NCBI RefSeq assembly: GCF_036785885.1 | Contig: NC_092312.1 | Coordinates: 19,672,001 to 19,736,000, forward strand | DNA from: Coffea arabica | Taxonomy: Eukaryota > Streptophyta > Magnoliopsida > Gentianales > Rubiaceae | Direction of reading: 5' to 3' | Length of the DNA: 64,000 bases | Part shown: positions 3,001-52,800 of the stretch, one piece after another | How the letters are laid out: each line of letters starts with the position of its first letter | How positions within the stretch are numbered: the first letter of the stretch is position 1 | Notes under the pieces: generated by a model | Seen by the model: only the letters and a program-made list of their open reading frames with translations | The model's database searches: none | What the model was told of the DNA's origin: nothing | Position numbers and translations under genes: made by a program

Positions 3001-5081
3001 AAACTGTTTGCTTGTGCTAAAACCACTAAATCTAGAAAATCAAGTGCAACCAGATTATTAGTGTTTTTTGTGATAAATCAACAACAATCAGTATTGTTCG
3101 TTAATAGAAAGCCAACCCGCTCAAAGTTTTGGTGATTTTTTGATAAAGATAGATGGATTTCCTTTCCAGTGATCAATGCTTGAAATCCAAATATCCAAGG
3201 GTAAATAGCCTACAAATAGTTATTTCATCAATGTATTGACCATCTTACCTTGCTTTATCCCAGAAACACCGACCTTCAAGCCACCAACAGCAGACGTTAC
3301 TGCAACAACAGAAATTCAGACTGGCACTGCTCCAATACAAATGCAAATAAATTTTCTGGAAGAAAAACTGCAAAACATATTCTTATAGACCACTGAAGCA
3401 CATCCAAAATAAGAATGAAGGACAATTAGTACCTGACATTGCAGGTGTAACAACACCATCAGCTATCACCATAGAAGTACCAGCAAGCACTAACATCAGA
3501 AGCAGCTTTTTCAGAGTCAAAGAAGTTTCAAGCCTCTCCTTTATTTTCAGTGACCTCTCAAGTTCAGCAGATGGCACCTTCAGCCTGAAGCTTGATATAC
3601 GAGCATCTGAAGGAAGCTGATTCGGAAGAAGACTAACCTTAGCATGCCTACATATCAATGAGTACAATGCAAATGTACCACCTGCATAGTTAGACCACGT
3701 AAAACAACTCATCTATGCAATCCAGAGCAAACCATTGACAAGTTTCTGCACAAACTGTTGTGTAATAATTGTTCAACTACCTTCACCATCGTCATTGGCC
3801 CAGAGAACAATAAGGACATACTTGATCAGTGGGACCAGGATCAAGGTGTACAATACCAGAGAAAGTGCACCAAGAACATCTTCATTTCCATTGACAGGGG
3901 CCTTGCTGAACATTACGCTGAAGGTGTATAATGGGCTTGTCCCCACATCACCAAAAACAATACCCAGTGTCTGAAAGGCCAGCAAAAATTTCCTGCCCAC
4001 AGTGATTTCCTGCGATTATAATTTCAAATCAAGACACCAACTTCTTAATGAAATTTAACAAGAAGAAATATCCTCTTCAATCACACCATTCAAGAGCATG
4101 TAATTTTCCTTAATACAGTAAGAAACCAAAATACACCCAGAACTTCTCTGTTATAACTGATTCCACTTTTCTCTCTCTTCCTATGTGGAGGCGTATGAAC
4201 ACAAAACAAGAAGAAAGGGCAAAAAAAGAAAAAAAAAATCATTTCTGTCTATTTAAACTCTCAACATGTGATAAGTTTCATTTCCATAAAAGTCAAAAGA
4301 CTTGTCCATTAGATTATGTGTATGATACCATTTCCATCTCAGTAGAACTAGTTCCTGAGTTATAAGGACAAAGAGCATTGGGGTGATCTTGACTGCAACT
4401 AACCAAAAAACATAAGCCAACTGAAATCAATCTAATTTCTACTGAAGCAAAAGTCCTCATCTCAAGCTCTTTTTTTTATCCAAAAAGGAAAAAAAAAAAC
4501 TCACCAACATGAGGACATCGCCTATTGTTTCATCAACCAACCAAGGTCAATACAACTATCGCTAATAGTTTCCTCACAAAGAAACTTTAATAACCGACCA
4601 TCCTCAATTATTATCTTCCATTTCCACATCGCACATTCAGTGAAAACATTTAAACACTTGATAGCGCATAAAAAACCGAAACAAATAATAATAGTAGTAA
4701 AACCAATCAGCAAACTGAGAAGCATGGAAATGAAAAAAAAAAAGGGCTAAATAATCAAATTTAAAAAAAAAAATTGAAGCGAAATACCTCAAAATCATTT
4801 CTGTGAGCGCCAGGTACTTCAAGAGCTTCAACGTCAAAGGAATCAATCCTCGGCCCCGTCCGAATCAACCGCTGCTCGGCATTATCATTATCATCGTCGT
4901 CGGAGTCCATCGTGCCATTGCGTGGCGACAATAAGCCATCAGCATCGTCATTTTCATCGTCGCCTTCGCCATATCCGATCGCCGATGCCTCCTCGTCGTC
5001 CTCGTCGTCCTGAAACACCCACCGCGACTCCGAATCCATCGACGATAATTGCCCTCCGTTCTCTCTCTCCGATCCCTCCAT
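1..5081 (-). CDS. KUP7: HAK/KT/KUP potassium transporter, KUP7-like (partial)
   Basis: Plasma-membrane K+ uptake carrier of the HAK/KT/KUP family. Nine exons on the minus strand: 5081-4788, 4009-3781, 3681-3433, 3299-3249, 2834-2574, 2208-2156, 1999-1885, 1756-1502 and 453-1. All borders are GT-AG and every phase joins cleanly, giving 653 codons of a protein that is usually about 850 long; the cytosolic C-terminal part lies beyond the left edge. The N-terminus (about residues 1-95) is acidic and Asp-rich and ends in RTGPRIDSFDVEALEVPGA, diagnostic of the KUP7 subgroup. The first membrane segment carries the family motif GIVFGDVGTSPLYTF, and ADGVVTPAMS, GTSKVGIVVGP and YIWNYGSKLKYE follow in the family order. 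I chose the ATG at 5081 because it gives the conserved KUP7 N-terminus. Related KUP7 proteins act in root K+ uptake and xylem loading; that role here is inferred from family membership. Confidence 0.94.
2303..2468. repeat. 85-bp tandem duplication inside a KUP7 intron
   Basis: Two adjacent diverged copies, 2303-2387 and 2388-2468, each start with ATCAAAGCTAGTAAGTTGC and end with a GTTTAGAAGAC or ATTTAGAAGAC stretch. They lie in the intron between the fifth and sixth coding exons and do not touch a splice site. Confidence 0.75.
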
Positions 5082-17800: not shown

Positions 17801-20800
17801 ATACGAAGCAAAACAATAGCAACAAAGCCTGAGGATTAGCAGGAAGCAAAGAACTTGTGTTTGCCAAACCATAAATAGGCATTAAGCACTAAACATTTGA
17901 ATGCATTTCCAAAGTTTCACATCCAAATTGATTAAGAAACCAAAATTAAAGAAAAAGCCAACTGAAAATCGAAAAAAGGTAAAGAAAAAACAAATCCAGA
18001 TTTTTTCATCAAAGAAAACTATCAAATTCCGCATATGATAAATTTCAACCAGCTAGACCTCTTGTTTCTTTTGGGTGGTTCTGCTTGACCAGCAATGCAA
18101 AACATAAAGGACCGAGATTGGAACCTGAAATATTAAAATCTCAAAAAAAAGTCAACTTATATAATGCAAATACATGTTAAATACAAATACTAAAGCAAAT
18201 CATATGATTTTTTCCCAAACAAAATCTGCTTGTTTGAAGCAAATCATGTCCACATCACGCCTGTGCTACCCTACGTTTTGCTATAGCCATAATAAAAATC
18301 TCTTCTATATGATCATAAAGTAAATGACATCCCAAAAAAATGGTAGAAATAAATCTTGGTGAATAAATCAACATGAGTAAATGTTTTTTACACCTGCAGT
18401 CTTCAAGGCAATAAAAAAACACTGATTCCTAAAGCAAAAATATTTACCCAAGCAACAGCAATATGTCGAGATCTAAAGGCACTAAGCCAAGTATAACTAA
18501 GCTAAACTTCTCTAGCAAAACTGCTGCATTAAGCAAATATGCAGCCATAATTTCCTCTTATACCTGTTAATGGTCTCTAAATACATGCTAGGAATAAACT
18601 CACCACATGTAATAGTCTTTTATACACACACATACACATACTTCACCATTGTTCTATAATAATCTGGACTAAACATTTTAATCTTTAGTCCAAATCAAAA
18701 CATCATATGCAAAAAATAGATAGACACACAGACCAGCCATTTTTGTAATAACTAGTTATCTAGGTGTGATATTTCAAGTAAACCTCTTTTTGTTCCTAAT
18801 ACAAGAAACACACATGGAACAAAATGTTATCCGGTGATTAGCAAATGAAAGATAATGAACAAATTATGCCTTAGCAGCATCTTTCAAGGATTTGTGGTAG
18901 AGTTCACTACTTAAATTCTGCAAAATGAGAATCAAGAACCACCAAAATAAATCAGCAGAATGTAGTGTTTTATCACCAAATTACATATACCTTAGGCAGC
19001 ATCTAGTTAATGTTCATACAGAGTTGCTCTGTCAATTGACAAATCTTTAACATGCCTTTTATGCTTGTTCTTTCCCATGTTAAGACTTCTCTCACTCCAC
19101 TGCCAATTAGTCCCACTCTAACTTATTTTTTGTAACCTGTTAACATATTAATTAGTCAAATAATAATCCTCTAATTGCTAAAAACACATGTCATACACAA
19201 TATAAACCCAGAAGGAAAACCCGTCTAAAATAAGTTGCATGAAAAAAGGTAGGAAGGCTACTATTAACAAACTGTTCACTAATGAATTAAAGGAGTGAAT
19301 TTCAAATTATTAGAGCCGATTTTCACATATCAGTTTCTACCATATATAATTGAGCATAGACATTTCTGATTCATGATATTTGTTCAAAATCTGGTATTTT
19401 AATAAAACAGAAGGCTGAAGGGAAAAAATCATCAGAAGATTGCACCTATATAATATCCAACCTCACACTTTTTCTTTTGTCTAAATAAATAGACCAACCA
19501 AAATATTATGGGTAAAAAACCTGCACCATGACAAAGATTACACATTCGTACTCATGGGGAAAAATCTTAAATAGAAGACCTCTCTAAGAGATTAGCATTT
19601 AAAAACAGATATTTTTCCTTTTGTAAAACTACAATAGAAGAAGAGATTATATAAGCACATAAAGCTTCTCCTTTTTATCAGTAAGTGAAGACCATGAGAA
19701 GAGAGAGGAAATTCATGGATAGAGGAACAAAGTCTTTCGGTTGAAAATCAAGAAAATAGGTTATAGGGGACAACTTTTTTCCAAGTTTAGTTGCTATTTA
19801 ACAAATTAACAGTTTTAACATTTTGTCAAACATTTGATAAATTAAACATGATTATATCATTACATTACTTTAAAACAGAAAAGGGGAAAAGGGAAAAAAG
19901 TAACCCCACGTACAAAAAGACCCAAAAAGTGGAGACCTATGAAATGCACAAATGAATCCAACGTCTAGTGAGGATTGATCAATTTTAAGTTTAAAAGGCT
20001 CAAGGAAACATGATAAATTTAAACTTTCCAAGACACAACTAAGAGGATAAACACTTCATGATAACCAAAATTGAAACTTACATCTAATATGTCATAACAA
20101 GAAATAAATAACAAAAAAATCCAAAGCAATCTCTTTTGCAGAGAAAAAAATAAAGAAAAGCAGAGTATAAACTGTAATCACATATACGCAAATAGAAGAA
20201 GGCTCGCTCAAAACATTCACCAATATTATGCAAAATAGGTTGGGAATATGTTGATCCATACCACCTTATTAGTAGTTTTTGAGAGAATCAAAGAAAATTC
20301 CAATTTTTGGACCTGCAACGTCACCAAAATATACAAATTATATAATCAAACATGGATAAGGAACTTTTTAAATCCACCAGAAATAACTTAATCAAATTTG
20401 TTAACTGCATTTTAATGTTTTTTAGTCACGGACGGAAAAGATGGAAATCAGGCAAAAGTAAGGGGAGGAAACAGCAAAAATAACTCTTCTTTTAGAAAAT
20501 AACCATATAAAACCTACCTTCAAAAAAGGGGGGAAAAGCTCAGAAAATAGCATGAGAATGATGGAGGTAATCTGCAAATTTCGTAACTGCAACATCTAAA
20601 CATTGCAAAAGGAAAAAAAAAAAGAAGGAAAAAATACATAAGGCTAGAGAAGCTCTAGAAAAAGAAGGAAAAATAAATTTTGAAGCGAAGCAAAAAATTC
20701 CCAACCATATATTTGGTATTGTTGTTGTCGATCAGAGAAAATGAAGGATAAGATAGGAAAAGGAGCAGCTTCAAGAGGGAAGATAGACTTACAAAGTAGC

Positions 20801-21385
20801 ATGAGAACGATAGAGAAAATCTCCAAATTTCGTACCTGCAAAATCGCAACATCACAGACAGCAAAAAAATAAGACAATCTAACCCGTAAAAAAGGGGAAA
20901 AACAAAAGGTTAGAGAAGCTCTAGAAAGGAGGAGGAAGAAGAAAATTTTGAAACAAAAAAAAATACCAACCATATCTTGGTTTCGTTGTTGTCGATCGGA
21001 AAAATGAAGGATAAAAGAGGGAAAATGGCACCGTTGGTGATGACGAACAGGAACAAGAAGAGAGGAAGAAGAGCTTTTTGGGGGAAAGAGGCAGACATCG
21101 AAAGAAAGGAGAAGAAAAGGCGTTGGTCTGAGCTCTGATGTTTCTCTTTCTCGAGCCATGTGCACACCTGACACCACGGAAAAGGAATCTTTGGTAAATC
21201 CCAGTCTCTTGTACTATGCTTGGTTGATATAACCAAGTTCGGCGCCTGTCCAATTGTCAAACGGGCTGGACAACCATCAAGAGGAAAGAATCACGGGCCG
21301 GACGACCACCAATCATCCAATGGAAGCCAGCCACATCAGCAATTGAAGCCCAATTGAAAACTTCCCCATTCCCGCATAGACTAGA
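14814..21385 (-). mobile_element. Non-autonomous Helitron 2
   Basis: Same family and orientation as the element on its left. Its 3' terminus (left edge) shows CTAG, then the hairpin CACCGCGC-GAT-GCGCGGTG (14826-14844). Its 5' terminus on the minus strand is TCTAGTCTATGCGGG. Length is about 6.6 kb. Co-linear similarity with Helitron 1 is visible at several places, for example around 9914-10025 against 17520-17625 and around 11000-11090 against 17720-17800. No Rep/helicase ORF is seen. It ends 270 bp before the start codon of the SC35-type gene. Confidence 0.82.
20651..21022. repeat. 268-bp spaced duplication inside Helitron 2
   Basis: The segment 20651-20758 (AGCTCTAGAAAAAGAAGG onward, with TTGTTGTTGTCGATC) recurs diverged at 20919-21022. 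The repeat is direct and lies near the 5' terminus of the Helitron, in a purine-rich setting. Confidence 0.7.
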
Positions 21386-21448
21386 TATGTTAATTAAGGA
21401 GCTCCTGTGATAAACGAAACAAAACACGTCTACTTTTGTCTCGAGATA

Positions 21449-21532
21449 TTGGGCTGAGGAAAGCCCAACCCAAGAACCGATTTTCTTTATATTTTCAAAC
21501 CAATAAAATGGGGGAAAAATTGCCTATAAATA
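21449..21532 (+). promoter_or_regulatory. Core promoter of the SC35-type gene
   Basis: Three elements in sensible order: an inverted pair of site II-type TGGGCT motifs (TTGGGCT...AAGCCCAA, 21449-21468), a CCAAT box near 21500, and a TATA box TATAAATA at 21525-21532. The predicted start of transcription is about 21555-21565, giving a leader of about 95 nt before the ATG at 21655. Site II elements are common in promoters of plant housekeeping and growth-linked genes. Confidence 0.65.
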
Positions 21533-21654
21533 CCGGGGACTGGATGGATCACATTCCAATCCTTCGGGAAAGTTCGTTCCAGGGAGAAGAATTTCCAGTG
21601 GATAGCGTAGGAGAACTTTGAGCCGATCACCGGACGCTGAGGAAGAAAGTCAGT

Positions 21655-24600
21655 ATGTCACACTTCGGAAGGTCAGGTCAGGTCAGGTCCGCCAGACATC
21701 ACTGACACCTATTCTCTTCTCGTCCTCAACATAACGTTCCGTACGTCTCTTCCACAAAGCCCCCCCTTCCCTTTCTCTCTCTATTTGTTACATTTTATTT
21801 TCTATATTTTTTCACTATTGGTTTTCTCTTGTGGTGGAAAATAATCAATAGGCACGAACGCTGATGATCTCTTTCCGCTGTTCGATAGGTATGGAAAGGT
21901 TGTTGATATCTTTATCCCTAGAGACCGAAGGTTTTTTTTTTTTTTTCTCTCTAAAAGTTTTTGTTGAAGAAATGGATGGTGCCATGCCCTAAACAATCAG
22001 ATTCAAGAGTTTATAGTAGGTCTTTCTTGTTTTTGTGGAAATACCGCGGGCATGCTGATCTCTGCTGCTTCATGCTTAACCAATTGCTTAATTTCGATGA
22101 GAAGTTTGTCCTAAACGGCTTCTTTTTTGTAGTTAGAGTTATAAAAGCGGATTATGAAATAGATGGCTGTTGAAAATCGCATTGGAAGCATGTTTTGTTG
22201 AAGTGTTTTTTCAGAAGAAAACAAATTATTTCTTTTTAAAGCATCCAAGTATCTTTGTTGCATAACTGTATTTTGCTGCTTAGATTAAGCTAAAGGAAAT
22301 GCCAGAAGCAAATTGAGACCACTTACAACAGCTTTTAGCTTAATGAAAAGATTTGGTTAGTTGAAAACATGCGCTTAGTCATTAACATTGTTTTATTTTT
22401 AGACACTGTACTATAATGATATTGGATGCAGAAATAGCATCTTCTCCGTATCTTAAACCTATTAGTTAATAGATGATTGATTTTTATTGAAAATTTGTGT
22501 TCTACTTTATCTCCAGTGGTGCATTTAAACTGTGCTCTGAAATTCATAGAGTGAACATTGAACTGATAAAAATGGAGGTCCTTTTCTCCAGAACTCTGCA
22601 TTTGGTTGCATGTTTCTTATTTTAATCTTAATTAATTGCAGGACCGGTGAGTCACGAGGGTTTGCATTTGTCCGCTATAAGTATGCAGATGAAGCCCAAA
22701 AAGCAGTGGATAGACTAGATGGTATGTTTGTCCATTCTATGTGGTTGAAAGGATAAGTTTTAGCTATTCTGTCAGAAGTAAAATCAATCTCAAACTCTGT
22801 GGAAGGAGAATTGTTTGCATGGAATTCGATGCCCAGAATGAATTTTTGTGATGCTTTCCATGGAACATGCCAAGTATTTTTAATCCTCCTACTGGCCTTC
22901 CCTGCTCAACTTTGGTGTTCATTTGACTTAGTGATTAATAAGCCCGTAGGGAAACTGGGGGAGAAGATATATCTGTGGAATTGGAAAAGCCAATTTATTC
23001 ATTCTACCTGAGCTTCCTGGGTACTTAATTATGGCACAAAATAGAAGTTCCAATGCACATGATTACAGGCCTTCTACTTGTTTAGCATACTGGCAGCTTG
23101 TGGCTTATCTTCCATGCTCAAACCAAAGGTTCATTTGCATTTATAAGAGTATTAAGCTGGAGGACGGGAAACTGATTTTGTAATCTGCTGCCACATCATC
23201 ATCTTCTATGTCCTAGACTGGCTTACATGTTGTACTCCAGCAGACTGCTCTACAGTCACACTTGAATTTTCACAATGTTGCAAATGTTCACAATCTCCCT
23301 AAATGGCTTCACAAGTATCATCATGATAGTTGTTTCTGAGATCATTCTTTTGTGTATCAGTAGAAATTTTCTGGTCATCGTGTAGGCAAATGCAATTCCA
23401 GCATTAGCTTCGTGGAATTCATTAAAGTGATCTGCATGCAGATCACTTGTTGGAGACAGTATTAATATAAGAAACTGATGCACATACTTCTTGACTGCTG
23501 TCTCACCCTTTGTTAAGTATGTTTGAGTCTAATTAATTATTGTTCTCTTGATGCCATTTTGGACAGGGAAATTGGTTGATGGAAGAGAAATTGCTGTTCA
23601 GTTTGCAAAATATGGGCCAAATGCAGAGAGGATGTAAGTCTCTCTTGCCTTGACCTCTTTCTTAAGTATTGTTCATCAATTGATTGTCATCCTTCTTTGC
23701 TGTTATTATGTCCAGTTCATATACAACAGCTTTGTTTTACTGGTTGTGAAATGACTTTCACTTGTGCAGCTAATTTTTTCTCCATTTAATGCCAAATTCT
23801 AGTGGGAAAGTTATGCCCCAAGTATTTGCAATTCTAAAATAAATGTTATATGGAGGATAAAGAAAAAAAAAATAAAGTGGTATTGTTCAAAGTTATCATG
23901 AGTTATAGTTATTCTTGGTAAGTTTGTTATGACAAACATTGAATGAGGCCATAACAAAGATTCTAAAGCGACATAAATTATTAACAACAAGCCACCTTGA
24001 TTTTGCTTTTTCTATAGTATTGGACAATTAACAATATTTTGTCTTTGTTTTTGTAATTGTCTAACTTTTTCTCAATGGTAAATATGTATTTCTTGCCTAC
24101 CTTTTGTTTCCAAATCCTTGTTTGGGGTGTTCTATCTTTGTTGTTCTCTTTTTCCGTGTCTAGGTATGTATTGTCTTGAAGCTCTTTTTTTTTTCCAACT
24201 GTTTTTCTGCTAATTCCTTTTCTGGACATGTTGATTTGATCTTTCATGTTTGGATCTCAGCCACAAAGGGAGGATTGTTGAAAAGTTGCCCAGAAGCAGG
24301 TTCAGGTCAAGAAGTCAAAGTCCTCGACGAAGGTGAGGTCTTTGCCTTTATTTGTTTGGGCTCAACTTATGGTAATAGTGTCGAGAAAGTGCCATCCTAA
24401 ACCTTCTACAATTTTCATTGTCATGTGACTTCTGTCACGTGTATGCAGTTTATTACGTATGACTTGATGTTGGTATTCTGTAATCATGAGGTTACATTAT
24501 GTTGCTGGAATTTCATTTTTTTTGTTCTGTTGTATAAGTGTGGCATGGATTGCAATTTGCTGAGAAGTTGGGGTTGGTTTAAGTGTGTTCTGTGGTGTAA

Positions 24601-25624
24601 GGATACAAAGAATCCAATGCTAGCGATGTAGTTTTTCTCTGCTCGACTTATTTTCTGGGGCAGATGAGGTATTGAAGCAGAATATCATATACATGTTGGC
24701 TTGTGGTTTACTTATAATGTTTCTGGCCTTGAATTCTTCAAGATGCCAACATCTTTTTCTTTTTACTGGCATAAATGGGGATGTGACTTTTAGGACTCAA
24801 CTGTTTTCCAGGTATCGGGATGATTATCATAGGGGCAGAGATTACCGGCGGAGAAGTCGGAGCAAAAGTTGGGACAGCTATGAGAGTGATAGGTATTGAG
24901 GCAGGGAACGAGATTACCATTATCGATGCTATGATATCTATATGGACTTTTGGTTCACTTGCTGTGTTAGAATTTTTTGGCTTCTGGCCTTGAATTCTTT
25001 CAGATGCCAACATCTTTTCCATTTTACTGGCATAAAATGGGGATATGACTTTGGGATTGAACTGTTTTCCAGGTATCGGGATGATTATCATAGGGGCAGA
25101 GATTACCGGAGGAGAAGTCGGAGCAGAAGTTGTGACAGTTATGAGAGTGACAAGTATCGAGGCAGGGGACGAGATTACAATTATCGAAGCAGGGGACGAG
25201 ATTACCATTATCGAAGCAGGAGCCGTAGTCCAAGTCCATATGATAGAAGTCATAGGAGGGGTCATTATGATGACGAAAGTCCAGAATATGATAGAATTCG
25301 TGGCAGGGGTCGACATGATAAACGCAGGATGAGTAGTAGTATATCTTCTGAAAGGTACTGTAAATGTCATGTCTGCTTTATTATTAAGACTACTGTTTTC
25401 TCCTAGCTAAATTGTTCTGGAAATGTTGCAGTGCGTCGCCACGCCGGCGTAGCCCCAGCTCTCAGAGTGATATATCATCACGGAGGACATCATCCCCCAG
25501 GAATGGTACTGGTGCTCTAACCCATAATGATCTGTACTCCACTGCTCAAAGCTTGTCTCCACAAGGCCGAGCTGCTGATCCACAAAGCCTCTCTCCCCTC
25601 TATTTAGAGAAGGTCGTATCCTGA
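21655..25624 (+). CDS. SC35: SC35-type serine/arginine-rich splicing factor, exon 1 out of frame
   Basis: SR protein of spliceosome assembly: an RRM binds exonic RNA and an RS tail recruits partners, in nuclear speckles. Exons: 21655-21740, 21852-21930, 22642-22721, 23567-23633, 24261-24332, a possible cassette 24812-24892, 25073-25354 and 25432-25624. The RRM begins DTYSLLVLNITFRTNADDLF and holds VDIFIPRDRR and RGFAFVRYKYADEA (RNP1). The RS tail has YRSRGRDY-type repeats and RRRSRSRS. The start MSHFGRSG matches plant SC35, but exon 1 has two extra GGTCA units (21671-21685), so the frame from that ATG stops at 21703-21705. In the RRM frame a TGA lies upstream with no ATG between. From exon 2 on all phases agree. 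Either this copy is damaged, the allele or assembly carries an error, or translation starts unusually. The family call is sure; functionality is not. Confidence 0.88.
21671..21690 (+). repeat. GGTCA pentanucleotide microsatellite in SC35 exon 1
   Basis: Three GGTCA units followed by GGTCC. Plant SC35 relatives encode GRSGPPD here, which needs only one GGTCA before GGTCC. The two extra units add 10 bp and shift the frame. Confidence 0.9.
24690..25211 (+). repeat. 261-bp tandem duplication covering the start of the RS-domain exon
   Basis: Copy 1 (about 24690-24950) and copy 2 (about 24951-25211) align over the end of the intron, the polypyrimidine tract and acceptor, and the first part of the exon. 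Both contain GGCCTTGAATTCTT and CTGTTTTCCAGGTATCGGG, offset by exactly 261 bp. Copy 1 ends GATAGGTATTGA where copy 2 has GACAAGTATCGA. Copy 1 therefore has an apparent donor (AG before GTATTG) giving an 81-nt in-frame exon, 24812-24892. If that donor is not used, TGA follows immediately. Confidence 0.88.
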
Positions 25625-26428
25625 GTTGTGTTCTGCTTTATGAAATTTTACAGGCAATGACCTAATATCGTGATGTGTTGCCTTTTTTTTTTTTTTTTGC
25701 AGGAGTGATGGTTTTCTGGAAGACACCCTGCTTTAAGTCAACATGTTGATTATGTTGCATGTTCTGCATTGTGGTTTTAGCCCATGCTTTTGGTAGGAGG
25801 ATCCTCTGAATCAGCTAATTTGTAATGGGACTATATGTTCTGTGGGGTAGTTGTTTCTGTTTCTAAAACTTTAATGCCAGTCTGAATCACCTTGTTTTTG
25901 GCGTCCATTTTGTCTCTAGAAAGTTCTGTCTTTGTTCAATGGTGAAGCATCACTGTGTGCTTAATTTATGGTCTAGAATGTTCCTGGTGGTTGCATGCGT
26001 TTATTGTGAATATATTTCAATTCCGAGTTTCTTTGTGTGATCTGCATAAGTATTTTCTCCTGTCTGGGTGGTTAATAAAAATTCTATATGATGATGAAAC
26101 TCGTGTTCTATTTTATAGCATGCTCGAGAAAAGGTGAAATGAGGCTGATGATCAAGTAGCTGTTGATGCCGTCTGTTAGTTAGTAGATGCATATGCACTA
26201 TTTCATAGTGGTTGAACAGCAGAATATGGTGCTCGGTGATTGACGTTCTTTGATAGTTATGTGGTGGGTAAGGCTTCTTTCCTGTATAGAATATGGCATT
26301 GAATACTTATTAAGAGATTTTGATGTGTGATAGGCTCGTTATCGCATCTCTTTCTGGCTTGACCTTGTTATCCTTCATCTTTGGTGCTTAGATTGGACCT
26401 CAAATTGGTCATATAATTGTGCACATGT
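25625..26428. other. SC35 3' UTR and downstream flank
   Basis: Downstream of the stop. A T-rich tract ending in CAG at about 25702 could serve as an acceptor for an alternative last exon starting GAGTGATGG, which would also stop at once. The rest looks like 3' UTR and non-coding flank. Confidence 0.45.
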
Positions 26429-26568
26429 CCACCTATTGCTGATGCTGCTAGACTGTTTACGTGGTAGAGGTGGAGATGTAGAAGCACATATCCATCCACC
26501 ACCTATTGCTGATGCTGCCGGCGGGTAGATCTTTTACATGGTAGTGGCGGCGATATAGAAGCGCGGTA
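26429..26568. repeat. 70-bp tandem duplication
   Basis: Copies at 26429-26498 and 26499-26568 both start CCACCTATTGCTGATGCTGC and continue with TTTACGTGGTAG or TTTACATGGTAG and a GATATAGAAG-like stretch. No gene is recognised here. The 143-codon ORF that follows (26669-27100) has no family signature. Confidence 0.7.
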
Positions 26569-29007: not shown

Positions 29008-29532
29008 CTACACTGGTCCAAGGAAGTCACCATTCAAGCCAACGACTGCTCGGAAATCCGCCTCAGCCTCAACATACTGCTCACCAATTACCATGAAACG
29101 TACAGTTACATCTTTCTCAATCTTGGATGTTTCACTTATGAAGATTGGGTTTTCTCCAGGCACATATCGATAATCAGGCATTTTTTGATGTGAGAGATAA
29201 ATTTTGTCCATAGGTCCACATCTCAAGAAAACCCCATGCTTCAGAATCTTGTGAACAACACCTTCCAGAACCTCTCCCTTGAAGATTTTGAAAGTAATGC
29301 AGCTGAACTCTACTGGAAAGAGTACATCCCCAGTACGCTCTCTAATTTTTCCTTCCCCAATCTTATCCAAAGTAGTCACAGCAAGAAAGTAACCCAGGTC
29401 CTTTGTTGCCTTTTTGGCAGCAAAATCATCCATAAGGCGAATGATAATGGCCTTTTGAAGTGCCAAACCATTGGAATCAAGGCTCTCAGGAGGGATTATT
29501 ACATTCCATGAGAGTTGTGATTGAAGAAACAT
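29008..29532 (-). CDS. NRPE7: RNA polymerase IV/V subunit 7 (NRPD7/NRPE7-type RPB7 paralogue)
   Basis: 174-residue, single-exon protein of the RPB7 family. It pairs with the RPB4-type subunit to form the stalk of a plant RNA polymerase; the Pol IV/V versions work in RNA-directed DNA methylation. It starts MFLQSQLSWNVIIPPESL, close to the Pol IV/V subunit 7 (MFLKVQLPWNVMIP) and unlike Pol II NRPB7 (MFFHIVLERNM). Other matching blocks are KKATKDLGYFLAVTTLDKIG, FKIFKGEVLEGVVHK, HGVFLRCGP and KMPDYRYVPGENPIF, with the end GDFLGPV. The N-terminal RNP-like half and the C-terminal OB half are both complete. The ATG at 29532 lies 11 nt after a 3' splice site (acceptor at 29544), so the leader is interrupted by an intron. 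Confidence 0.93.
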   Translation of the reverse strand: MFLQSQLSWNVIIPPESLDSNGLALQKAIIIRLMDDFAAKKATKDLGYFLAVTTLDKIGEGKIRERTGDVLFPVEFSCITFKIFKGEVLEGVVHKILKHGVFLRCGPMDKIYLSHQKMPDYRYVPGENPIFISETSKIEKDVTVRFMVIGEQYVEAEADFRAVVGLNGDFLGPV

Positions 29533-49357: not shown

Positions 49358-49890
49358 TATATATGTTCTCGGGTGTGTGAGACTGTGAGTGAGAGAGGGG
49401 GAGAGAGAGTCTGTTGCTTTTCCCCAGCTTTAATGGCGTGAGACCGTACCAGAAGAGTGCGTGTGTATGTATTCTCTACAGTACATGTATGTAACCGTAT
49501 CCAGTCCATTCATCTTTGCATGCTTCACCAACTCATCCCAATAGAAAACCCAAAACCCAAATGAGCCGATTATTAAACTTATAATCCAACGAGAAAAAAT
49601 GGATTTTGAATAAAATTTTACAATCACCAATTCCCCACCCCACCTCACTCTTTCCATTTTCTTCAATCAAGACTCTTTTTTTGGTCTTTCACTCCATCCC
49701 AGATGATCAAAAGCGGTAATCTTTTCTGGGTTTCTGTTACACTTTTTTTTCTTAGTCTTTCTTAGGTCAGTTTCCAATGTGGGCTTCTTGATTCTTGCCT
49801 TGCCTGCTTTTGCTGTAAATCTTTGGTTATTACTACCTTCTTGTTGTGAATCTTAGTTATTGTTGAAGAAGGGGAAAAAGGAGGAGGAAA
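49358..49890 (+). promoter_or_regulatory. PUF gene core promoter and long leader
   Basis: A TATATAT element at 49358-49364 precedes a GA-rich stretch (GAGAGAGGGGGAGAGAGAG at about 49392), so transcription probably starts around 49390 and the leader is about 500 nt. The leader has a minimal upstream ORF ATGGCGTGA (about 49433) and a 20-residue one at 49703-49765. A leader intron is possible but not determined. Confidence 0.45.
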
Positions 49891-52800
49891 ATGAAAGATG
49901 ATGAGGAGCTTGAATTGCTATTGGGTGAGATCCCTCATGCAATATCCTTCAATCATCATCATCATCTTAGACATGGTCATGGTAGTGATCACCATCATCA
50001 TAATCTTGACGAGTCTTTGTTGGCACAAAAAATGACTGGTATGATGTACCGTATGGGTATGTATGATGATGTGACATTGGATCATAATAATAAACATACG
50101 TGTGCTTCCCCTGTGAGTGGGTTTTCTCTGCATTCAGATAGCTCTTCTTCAAGTTTGTTCTCTGGTGGGCATTCATTTTCAGACAATGGATCCCCTACCA
50201 CACCTCCAGTGGAAGAGCTTCAAACTCACTCAAATGGTGGTACTAGTACACAATCACATTACTCTGACCGGTTGTGGATGGAGAACAAATCTCCCGATTC
50301 GTATTTTGGGCGGAAGGCTGATGATAACGTGTTTGATGAGCTGAGGTTGTTAAGAAATTTGAGTCGAATGTATGTTAGTAAGGAGCCAGAGGATGTCAAA
50401 TTGCTAAATTTAAGTGGTCGTCAGATTTTTGATCGTGTTAGTGGTGGGAATATCGGGATGGATTTGGATCAACATGGCTTGTTTTCACAATATTATGGCA
50501 GAGGCATTTCTGATTATGGGAGAATTCAGTGCCCTGTTCCAGGAAGTCCCTTGAGTTTAGACGCTAATCTATTAGGATCCCGGTATTCCCTGAGTCAATC
50601 AGGTGAACCATATTCTCATTTATATGGTAGAAATGGTTCTGTGAGTGCCCAATTTTGTCTTACGAAGGGACTGGATGCTCATCATTATGTGGGATTTCCA
50701 GTTAACAACTTGTCAGGTACTGTGACTCGCCCTTCTATTACTGAGGCTCAATATTATGCTCAGCGAAATGGGATGGGTATCCTATCCAAAAATGATGTAT
50801 TTCACTCTCTGGATGTGCCTCAGTTGGCTCCAATGAAGACTCAAGCCAATGTGGAAAATGTAAATTATTATCGCCAACAGCGAACAAATGCATGTAAAAT
50901 AGTACCTCCACACGTTAGAGTACCTCATGGAAGTCTTGAGGCTCTTTCTGGTGAACAAAGCTTGATTATTCAAGGTGAAAGTTTGAATTATGCGTTAAAT
51001 CGAGTACAGGAACGATCAAGGCACAACAAGGGTTCCCCATATGAGGCTGATGTAAATGCACATCAAGAAAAGCAGTCACTTATAGATGGTTGCCCCCAGA
51101 TTGCAGGAAATCAAGTACGTGCTCAAAGTCTCAGACTGTGTTGCCCATTTTCTCTGCCATCAAAGTGTAACTCCTTGGGAGAAGCTCAAGGTTACATTTA
51201 CTACATAGCAAAGGATCAACATGGTTGTCGATTCTTGCAAAGGATGTTTGATGAGGGAACTCCTCAAGATGTTCAAGTCATATTCACTGAGATAATTGAC
51301 CACGTAGTTGAACTTATGATGAACCCTTTCGGGAATTACCTTATGCAAAAGCTATTGGAAGCGTGCAATGAAGAGCAGAGAATGCAGATTCTGCTCAGGG
51401 TAACAGCAAAACCTGGAGAGCTCATCAGAATCTCATTAAACACCCATGGGTAAGATTTGCATCTTTCGCTTGGAGTATTATTCAGCACAATACTGATCTA
51501 ACAAAGCTATTACTGTATCAGCACACGAGTGGTTCAAAAATTGATTGAGACGCTTAAATCTAGGCAGCAGACGTCACTAGTTATTTCAGCTCTTGAACCT
51601 GGATTTCTTGCTCTTATCAAGGACCTAAATGGTAATCATGTCGTCCAAAGATGCCTGCAATGCCTTAGCTATGAAGACAGCAAGGTACTCCTCTATTTCA
51701 CTGAAGCTTCTTGGACATTCTTAAGTGATCTTCCTCTTTTTTATGCAATTTCTGTCATCGATTTGAGTTATAGTATAAAAGTTTATGTTTTGGATTTCCT
51801 GATTGTCTGATTACAGTATAGATGTCTGTAGGAAATTGGTTGAGAAGATTGGCTTCGTATGTAGGGATAACCTTGTTGCATCATGAGTTAACATAGATTA
51901 TATCTGACAATGGGCTAAAGTTCATAGCAAATGAATCTTATGCTTTGCTGTGGTTTATTTTTGATGAATTTCAAAGGCCTTCTCGTGAATTTCAAAATGC
52001 ATTCAACACTATTCTTTTGCTGCTTCACTTATCAGAAGAAGTATGTATGCTCCTTATCTTGGTAAGTATACCAAATGCAAGAATTGGGAAACAGTTTTGT
52101 ATAAGAGCTTTCTATTGCTTTGTTGTGTCTCTGAAAGATGAGAAGACATGTACCCAATGTTTCTCTTATTTCTTTCTGTGATTCTCATGATTGAAAGGAG
52201 AGACTGTGGATCTCTTCTCACTATTACATAATCAAAGTTTCCTGCGGTGATATCCTTTCACGACATTGACACGTTAGTCAGACATCTAAATGTTATAGAG
52301 GTTCAGTTCCGATGGTCTAAATGTCGGCCAAAGTCGTCATATTCTCATTTGGTTTTTATGGGACAATTTTTTTAGCTTAGCAAGCCAATAAGCCCTCAAT
52401 AATAAGGCAAAGATATGGGTTTTCTGCTTTGAATGCTGTTATCATTTATGGATGATTTTTTTTCTTTTTTGGGCATTGCACAAGCATTACTGATTGCTGA
52501 ATTGTCTGTTTTCGACTTTGGCTAGTGTTCAGGCTGCTATAAGATGAATCATGCGTCTTTACTTGAGCATGAAAAACTTAGTTAAATGTTGTTCTGTTTT
52601 GGTGTAATACATACTGATGTGTCTTGTTTCTTACCTTGAGAAAGGAGGATGGAGTGGCCTATGACAAATAAAAGGGAGTGGTAGTGCCTTGTTTGGAAAA
52701 GTTGAGAGGATGTAGAAATTGAAGTGGATTGGATAGTAAGAAGGCGTGTGACAGAGGGCTTACTCTTATCCTCTACCAAAATCTCGTTACTAATTCTTAC

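Follow-up and report, generated by a model that had tools for sequence, protein, structure and literature searches.

In a window of the Coffea arabica genome (the whole stretch of DNA that was analysed, 64,000 nt), the gene for the conserved splicing factor SC35 carries its start codon in a different frame from its RRM. Translation in the frame of the ATG at 21655-21657 gives MSHFGRSGQVRSARHH, that is 16 codons, and then meets TGA at 21703-21705. The RRM lies in the frame shifted by one base, with codons beginning at 21656, 21659 ... 21689, where the translation is ...SGPPDITDTYSLLVLNITFR. The frame break is real and had been described correctly in a first-pass annotation of the same DNA, and the kind of event is an ordinary one. 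What exon 1 displays directly is the one-base difference in frame together with a perfect array of AGGTC units. We consider it probable that a recent slippage-type duplication of AGGTC in the first coding exon led to the premature stop and that the allele gives rise to no full-length SC35.

The first-pass annotation had put the ATG out of frame with the RRM, located a repeat at the break and regarded all later exons as intact. Our data agree in each respect. The ATG frame ends at TGA 21703 and the RRM frame is open, the coordinates of the repeat are right ((AGGTC)x4 at 21670-21689), and the RRM frame shows zero stops in the 816 nt from PPD (21689) to its stop at 25706. Joining 21740 to 21852 reads F-R-T-N-A-D-D-L and leads onward into TNADDLFPLF... 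in the RRM frame. From the stop at 21638 onward this frame holds no methionine until MSSSISSE in the RS tail. Hence a downstream AUG cannot save the RRM. The RRM frame is free of stops in 8/8 exons, whereby a second frame is also stop-free in exons 2, 4, 5 and 6a. Codon usage, trained on a single Pumilio exon from the window, ranked the RRM frame best in five of the eight exons tested (3, 5, 6a, 6b and 7; not 1, 2 and 4). For exon 1 it yielded 2.0 bits in the RRM frame, 2.8 in the ATG frame and -0.3 in the third, singling out no frame.

The assignment to SC35, likewise proposed in the first pass, is borne out by the domain, by the likeness to human SRSF2 and by the RS tail. The protein of the RRM frame matches PF00076 over profile positions 1-69 of 70 (E 6.2e-19, 68.1 bits); a comparison of the RRM with NCBIfam returned 9 rows and 0 at cut-off. 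Among PDB chains (best 60 of 297 sequences, a collection that leaves out plant SC35 and SCL proteins) the closest RRM is that of SRSF2 (2lea), with 94.1 bits over one RRM from the shared PPD on. The alignment contains 46/91 identical residues, including PPD, IPRDR and SRGFAFVR. PABP 6r5k_D, which ranks first by E-value, owes its 99 bits to a sum over four RRMs, the best single one reaching 27.7 bits. SCL proteins possess a charged N-terminal extension, and the N-terminus of the SC35/SRSF2 subfamily is short. Here the ATG is situated only 34 nt 5' of PPD, which is too near for an SCL-type extension, and the frames are broken in between. As given in PMC9456285, SR proteins have one or two N-terminal RRMs (PF00076), followed by an RS domain that is 50 aa or longer, exceeds 40% in R+S and contains RS/SR repeats. 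The RRM, in its own frame, corresponds to this definition. So does the RS tail, with 56% R+S in the best 50 aa, 48.7% in the best 150 aa, 44.4% over the whole 171-aa tail and 20 RS/SR dipeptides. A continuous frame from AUG to RRM, implied but not spelled out by the definition, is interrupted by the TGA at codon 17. The gene shares with plant SC35 and human SRSF2 one SRSF2-type RRM followed by an RS tail, with PPD before beta-1, and differs from them by a start codon off the RRM frame and a tandemly duplicated start of exon 6. It is SC35 by descent; the allele with the normal splice does not encode SC35.

Coordinates are summarised in Table 1. GT-AG borders are found in 8/8 mapped introns, counting 6a as an exon. 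The TATAAATA box occurs in 6 copies on the plus strand and 2 copies on the minus strand of the 64 kb, the copy at 21525 lying 130 bp before the ATG. A scan of 21400-21760 for bacterial promoters and terminators gave 0 and 0, a result not meaningful for a plant gene.

Table 1. Features of the SC35 gene, in positions of the window; a slash marks the exon/intron border in splice donors.
Feature	Position	Strand	Remarks
TATAAATA box, probable core promoter of the SC35 gene	21525..21532	+	sequence; putative function
First coding exon	21655..21740	+	86 nt; normal donor TCC/GTACGT at 21741
ORF from the conserved ATG	21655..21705	+	16 codons + TGA 21703-21705; translation
Tandem array AGGTC x 4, perfect	21670..21689	+	ATG frame on one side, RRM frame on the other
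Decoy donor CAG/GTCAGG, GT at 21677	21677..21682	+	7/9, -7.4 kcal/mol; in frame from ATG to exon 2
Second decoy donor CAG/GTCAGG, GT at 21682	21682..21687	+	7/9, -7.4 kcal/mol; out of frame
Coding exon 2	21852..21930	+	79 nt; donor AAG/GTTTTT, then T run
Coding exon 3	22642..22721	+	80 nt; carries RNP1 RGFAFVRY
Coding exon 4	23567..23633	+	67 nt; RRM end
Coding exon 5	24261..24332	+	72 nt; RS tail begins
Exon 6a	24812..24892	+	81 nt; tandem copy of 6b start, in-frame inclusion possible
Exon 6b	25073..25354	+	282 nt; RS tail
Exon 7	25432..25612	+	181 nt; RS tail
End of coding frame, GAG TGA	25703..25708	+	last exon

A tandem-repeat scan of 20500-26500 reports the array as AGGTC x 4.0 with 100% match; the GGTCA repeat of the first-pass annotation is this array read in a different phase. 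No other perfect pentamer array of at least 4 copies is present in the 64 kb, and 100 dinucleotide-preserving shuffles of the whole window produced 0; at a threshold of at least 3 copies 2 arrays were observed against a shuffle mean of 0.23 and a maximum of 2; the shuffles do not model slippage and real genomes are richer in microsatellites, so that this loose yardstick overstates the surprise. The array appears to have grown by 10 bp from a conserved state. Both the growth and its extent of exactly 10 bp are derived from the N-terminus of plant SC35, MSHFGRSGPPDI.... The peptide MSHFGRSG and five related strings are absent from searchable paper text, to which sequences in figures are invisible. 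Collections of virus and prokaryote contigs gave 7 + 130 pattern matches with 0 confirmed relatives, which has no bearing on rarity. By its perfect 5-bp unit inside coding sequence the array resembles frameshifting non-triplet coding STRs, but with only four units hypermutability is doubtful. Such STRs are expected, according to PMC9990875, to be removed by selection as frameshifts. Among the titles listed for coding-repeat frameshifts and pseudogenes none names SC35, and the works found are general.

Under the preferred reading, slippage would have added AGGTC units to the first coding exon of SC35. Translation from the ATG at 21655 would then end at codon 17, before every mapped exon junction. 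A premature stop ahead of exon junctions is the standard setting of nonsense-mediated decay (NMD). The normally spliced mRNA should thus be an NMD target and would presumably be degraded. For comparison, a premature stop is present in 53/75 transcripts of 13 Arabidopsis SR genes, and approximately half of these forms are confirmed NMD targets as given in PMC9456285. The function of SC35 may be taken over by paralogues, either SCL proteins or another SC35 copy; the 64-kb window contains no second copy at E <= 0.01. In PMC5362245, Arabidopsis plants with a null mutation in any one of 17 SR genes, SC35 being one of the 17, are described as being without obvious morphological alteration, which suggests that a loss of SC35 may be tolerable. 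According to the same text (PMC5362245) the scl28 scl30 scl30a scl33 quadruple mutant is mildly and the sc35-scl quintuple mutant clearly affected, and sr, rs and rsz-rs2z multiple mutants are not visibly affected. If real, the coffee allele would represent a natural loss of SC35 and put the redundancy of SR proteins to a natural test in a species other than Arabidopsis.

The absence of stops from the 816 nt implies that any loss would be recent. At 95%, drift after the loss would amount to at most 2.2-5.5% substitutions per site, provided that drift is neutral, that indel:substitution ratios are 0.2-0.05 and that two thirds of the indels shift the frame. There is no trace of old decay, consistent with the earlier view that this is not an old pseudogene. 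With its introns kept, one frame-breaking length change and a premature stop, the locus resembles a recent non-processed loss-of-function allele or pseudogene, from which it differs in lacking a second disablement; the change may be fixed or segregating, and the gene may yet be expressed. Clean later exons are, however, equally expected from a working gene with an unrecognised start, and a consensus error would give the identical sequence picture.

Such an error of assembly or consensus, in which the true unit number of the plant is in frame and the record is wrong, we regard as rather unlikely. The change does sit in a tandem repeat, where consensus errors tend to concentrate, and an intact downstream gene is exactly what an error would leave. 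Against this, the twenty bases of the array are well inside any read length, and 10 bases are unlike the usual error, which affects one base in a homopolymer. Moreover the genes of the window that were compared for frame breaks (Pol V subunit 7, the Pumilio frame and the remainder of SC35) are clean. Over 166/166 of the residues given, the Pol V subunit 7 gene can be aligned to 8hyj_G with its frame unbroken and a single gap of one residue, the stop-to-stop frame of Pumilio repeats at 49867 runs through 528 codons uninterrupted, and SC35 has no other stop in its 816 nt. If the record were nevertheless wrong, the finding would be a warning of a conserved splicing factor mis-annotated in the Coffea arabica genome.

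The interpretation offered in the first pass stands as to the identity of SC35, the out-of-frame start and a recent length mutation as the best fit; it overlooked the splice-site potential of the repeat. AGGT recurs at 21670, 21675, 21680 and 21685, with an AG/GT in every unit. The decoy sites CAG/GTCAGG agree with the donor consensus at 7/9 positions and pair with the U1 5' end at -7.4 kcal/mol, compared to 5/9 and -1.2 for the normal donor TCC/GTACGT; these energies represent the best pairing of the 9-nt site with the register not forced and are only one part of donor choice. By energy the decoys are surpassed by just one of the 8 mapped donors, that of intron 5 (-10.1), and in consensus score the donor of intron 4 alone reaches the same 7/9. 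A predicted splice from 21677 to 21852 leaves a frame open from the ATG to the natural stop that lacks 18 residues (beta-1, RNP2). The shortened domain retains 66.0 bits against PF00076 from profile position 9, versus 68.1 for the whole domain; hence the harm of losing beta-1 is not readable from the profile alone.

It is conceivable on these grounds, but in our judgement unlikely, that the donor at 21677 is used and joins MSHFGRSG in frame to TNADDLF.... Its product, to which we give equally low credence, would be a near full-length SC35 without PPDITDTYSLLVLNITFR (beta-1, RNP2) and with RNP1 and the RS tail. This shortened protein might disturb the work of other SR proteins or have an effect via its RS tail alone. 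The better computed U1 match of the decoys compared to the normal intron-1 donor argues for their use, as do the joined exons, which are open to the natural stop with a recognisable RRM. AGGT motifs have been described as both donors and acceptors in PMC10809524, where such introns are enriched in human tandem-repeat genes and the word 'plant' is never used. The dual-specific sites of UBC and VCX3A described there (PMC10809524) share with the SC35 array the tandem AGGT with donor and acceptor cores, but the SC35 units measure 5 bp, far below intron length, the gene is from a plant and its sites are putative.

Several points weaken this possibility. Four AG/GT at a 5-nt pitch would be expected to include one in-frame site anyway, and two of the seven GT dinucleotides from the ATG to 21740, those at 21677 and 21722, keep the frame. 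However many units there are, the distance from the ATG to the in-frame site at 21677 remains 22 nt, so that rescue is not special to four units; the additional units alter only the bases behind this site and the number of competing sites. Furthermore the normal donor adjoins a U-rich intron, on which plant donors also depend, and the loss of beta-1 probably cripples RNA binding. Still, the decoy donors may yield some in-frame mRNA, and 'no protein' is then possibly too strong a wording for the loss that we favour. It is quite improbable that the repeat at once breaks the RRM frame and, by setting strong CAG/GTCAGG donors next to a weak natural one, diverts splicing such that the ATG is rejoined, which would give an isoform without RNP2. 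Similarly doubtful is the idea that a coding microsatellite acts by its unit number as a dial on a splicing regulator, setting the ratio of null to shortened isoform. The dial would have to operate through strength and number of competing donors, the distance of the in-frame site being fixed. If the decoy donors were used, the gene would illustrate on a small scale how a coding repeat can both disrupt a frame and supply the splice site that rejoins it.

A full RRM protein could also arise by unusual translation, either from a non-AUG start (ATC 21698, AAG or AGG) or by a +1 frameshift, yet this is very unlikely. The two frames overlap over 21655-21703 and a +1 shift anywhere therein restores the RRM; a candidate is located in the vicinity of CAC UGA C (21700-21706), where a ribosome passing over one base would continue directly into DTYSLLVLNITFR. 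Initiation at ATC 21698 would keep the RRM from its first beta-strand. From the stop at 21638 to beta-1 the RRM frame offers three near-cognates, of which AAG 21647 precedes the AUG and AGG 21680 and ATC 21698 follow it. With A at -3, the AUG at 21655 is expected to intercept scanning ribosomes, and AAG and AGG count as the poorest near-cognates. Recoding is reported from chloroplasts (PMC8254509). The non-AUG start considered in the first-pass annotation is accordingly weak, given the few near-cognates and the context of AUG 21655.

The same annotation had named an upstream exon with an in-frame ATG as one of the cases that would refute it. That such an exon bypasses the conserved ATG we hold to be extremely improbable. 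The upstream exon considered here is a uORF at 21544-21621 (25 codons), which contains a GT at 21607 (4/9, -5.0) that in theory could be joined to AG 21676 in the RRM frame. The implied intron of 70 nt is not T-rich, however, its last 20 nt ahead of the AG containing 5 T, and ATG 21544 is located 12 bases past the TATA box and probably before the transcription start. The position of TATAAATA at 21525, upstream of the conserved ATG by 130 bp, also speaks against it. In the 20 nt ahead of each repeat AG there are 4-6 T, as opposed to 8-16 in 7/8 mapped acceptors and 6 for exon 2, although total pyrimidines overlap (8-11 for the repeat AGs, 7-19 for the mapped acceptors).

Pfam assigned a family to 5 of the 10 window proteins searched, and the window also carries a SAUR gene (PF02519), a K_trans exon and a Pumilio exon; the proteins starting at 4764, 33252, 34812, 35977 and 43671 had no Pfam family. 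Rfam gave 0 matches at gathering score over the whole window. On the minus strand, 29011-29508 comprises an intact gene that most resembles subunit 7 of plant RNA polymerase V (8hyj_G, E 8e-74). The long uninterrupted exon of the Pumilio family spans 49867-51453, 528 codons from stop to stop.

Just upstream of the SC35 promoter, 20524-20963 contains diverged direct repeats that are 249-268 bases apart and 72-90% alike, and a minus-strand frame of 189 codons from stop to stop covers them. The donor of intron 2 (21925-21946) reads AAG/GTTTTT into 15 T and is off consensus at +3 to +5; the length of this homopolymer may differ between individuals. The start of exon 6 and the preceding intron are tandemly duplicated (24702-24929 and 24963-25190, 261-nt spacing) with 91% identity over 141 nt and 81% over 79 nt. 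Inclusion or skipping of the 81 nt of exon 6a would keep the frame. Compared with 6b, 6a exhibits an AG/GTATTG donor in the right phase with a TGA just past it. The RS tail itself harbours a tandem repeat at 25150-25220 with 2.6 copies of a 27-bp unit, a whole number of codons.
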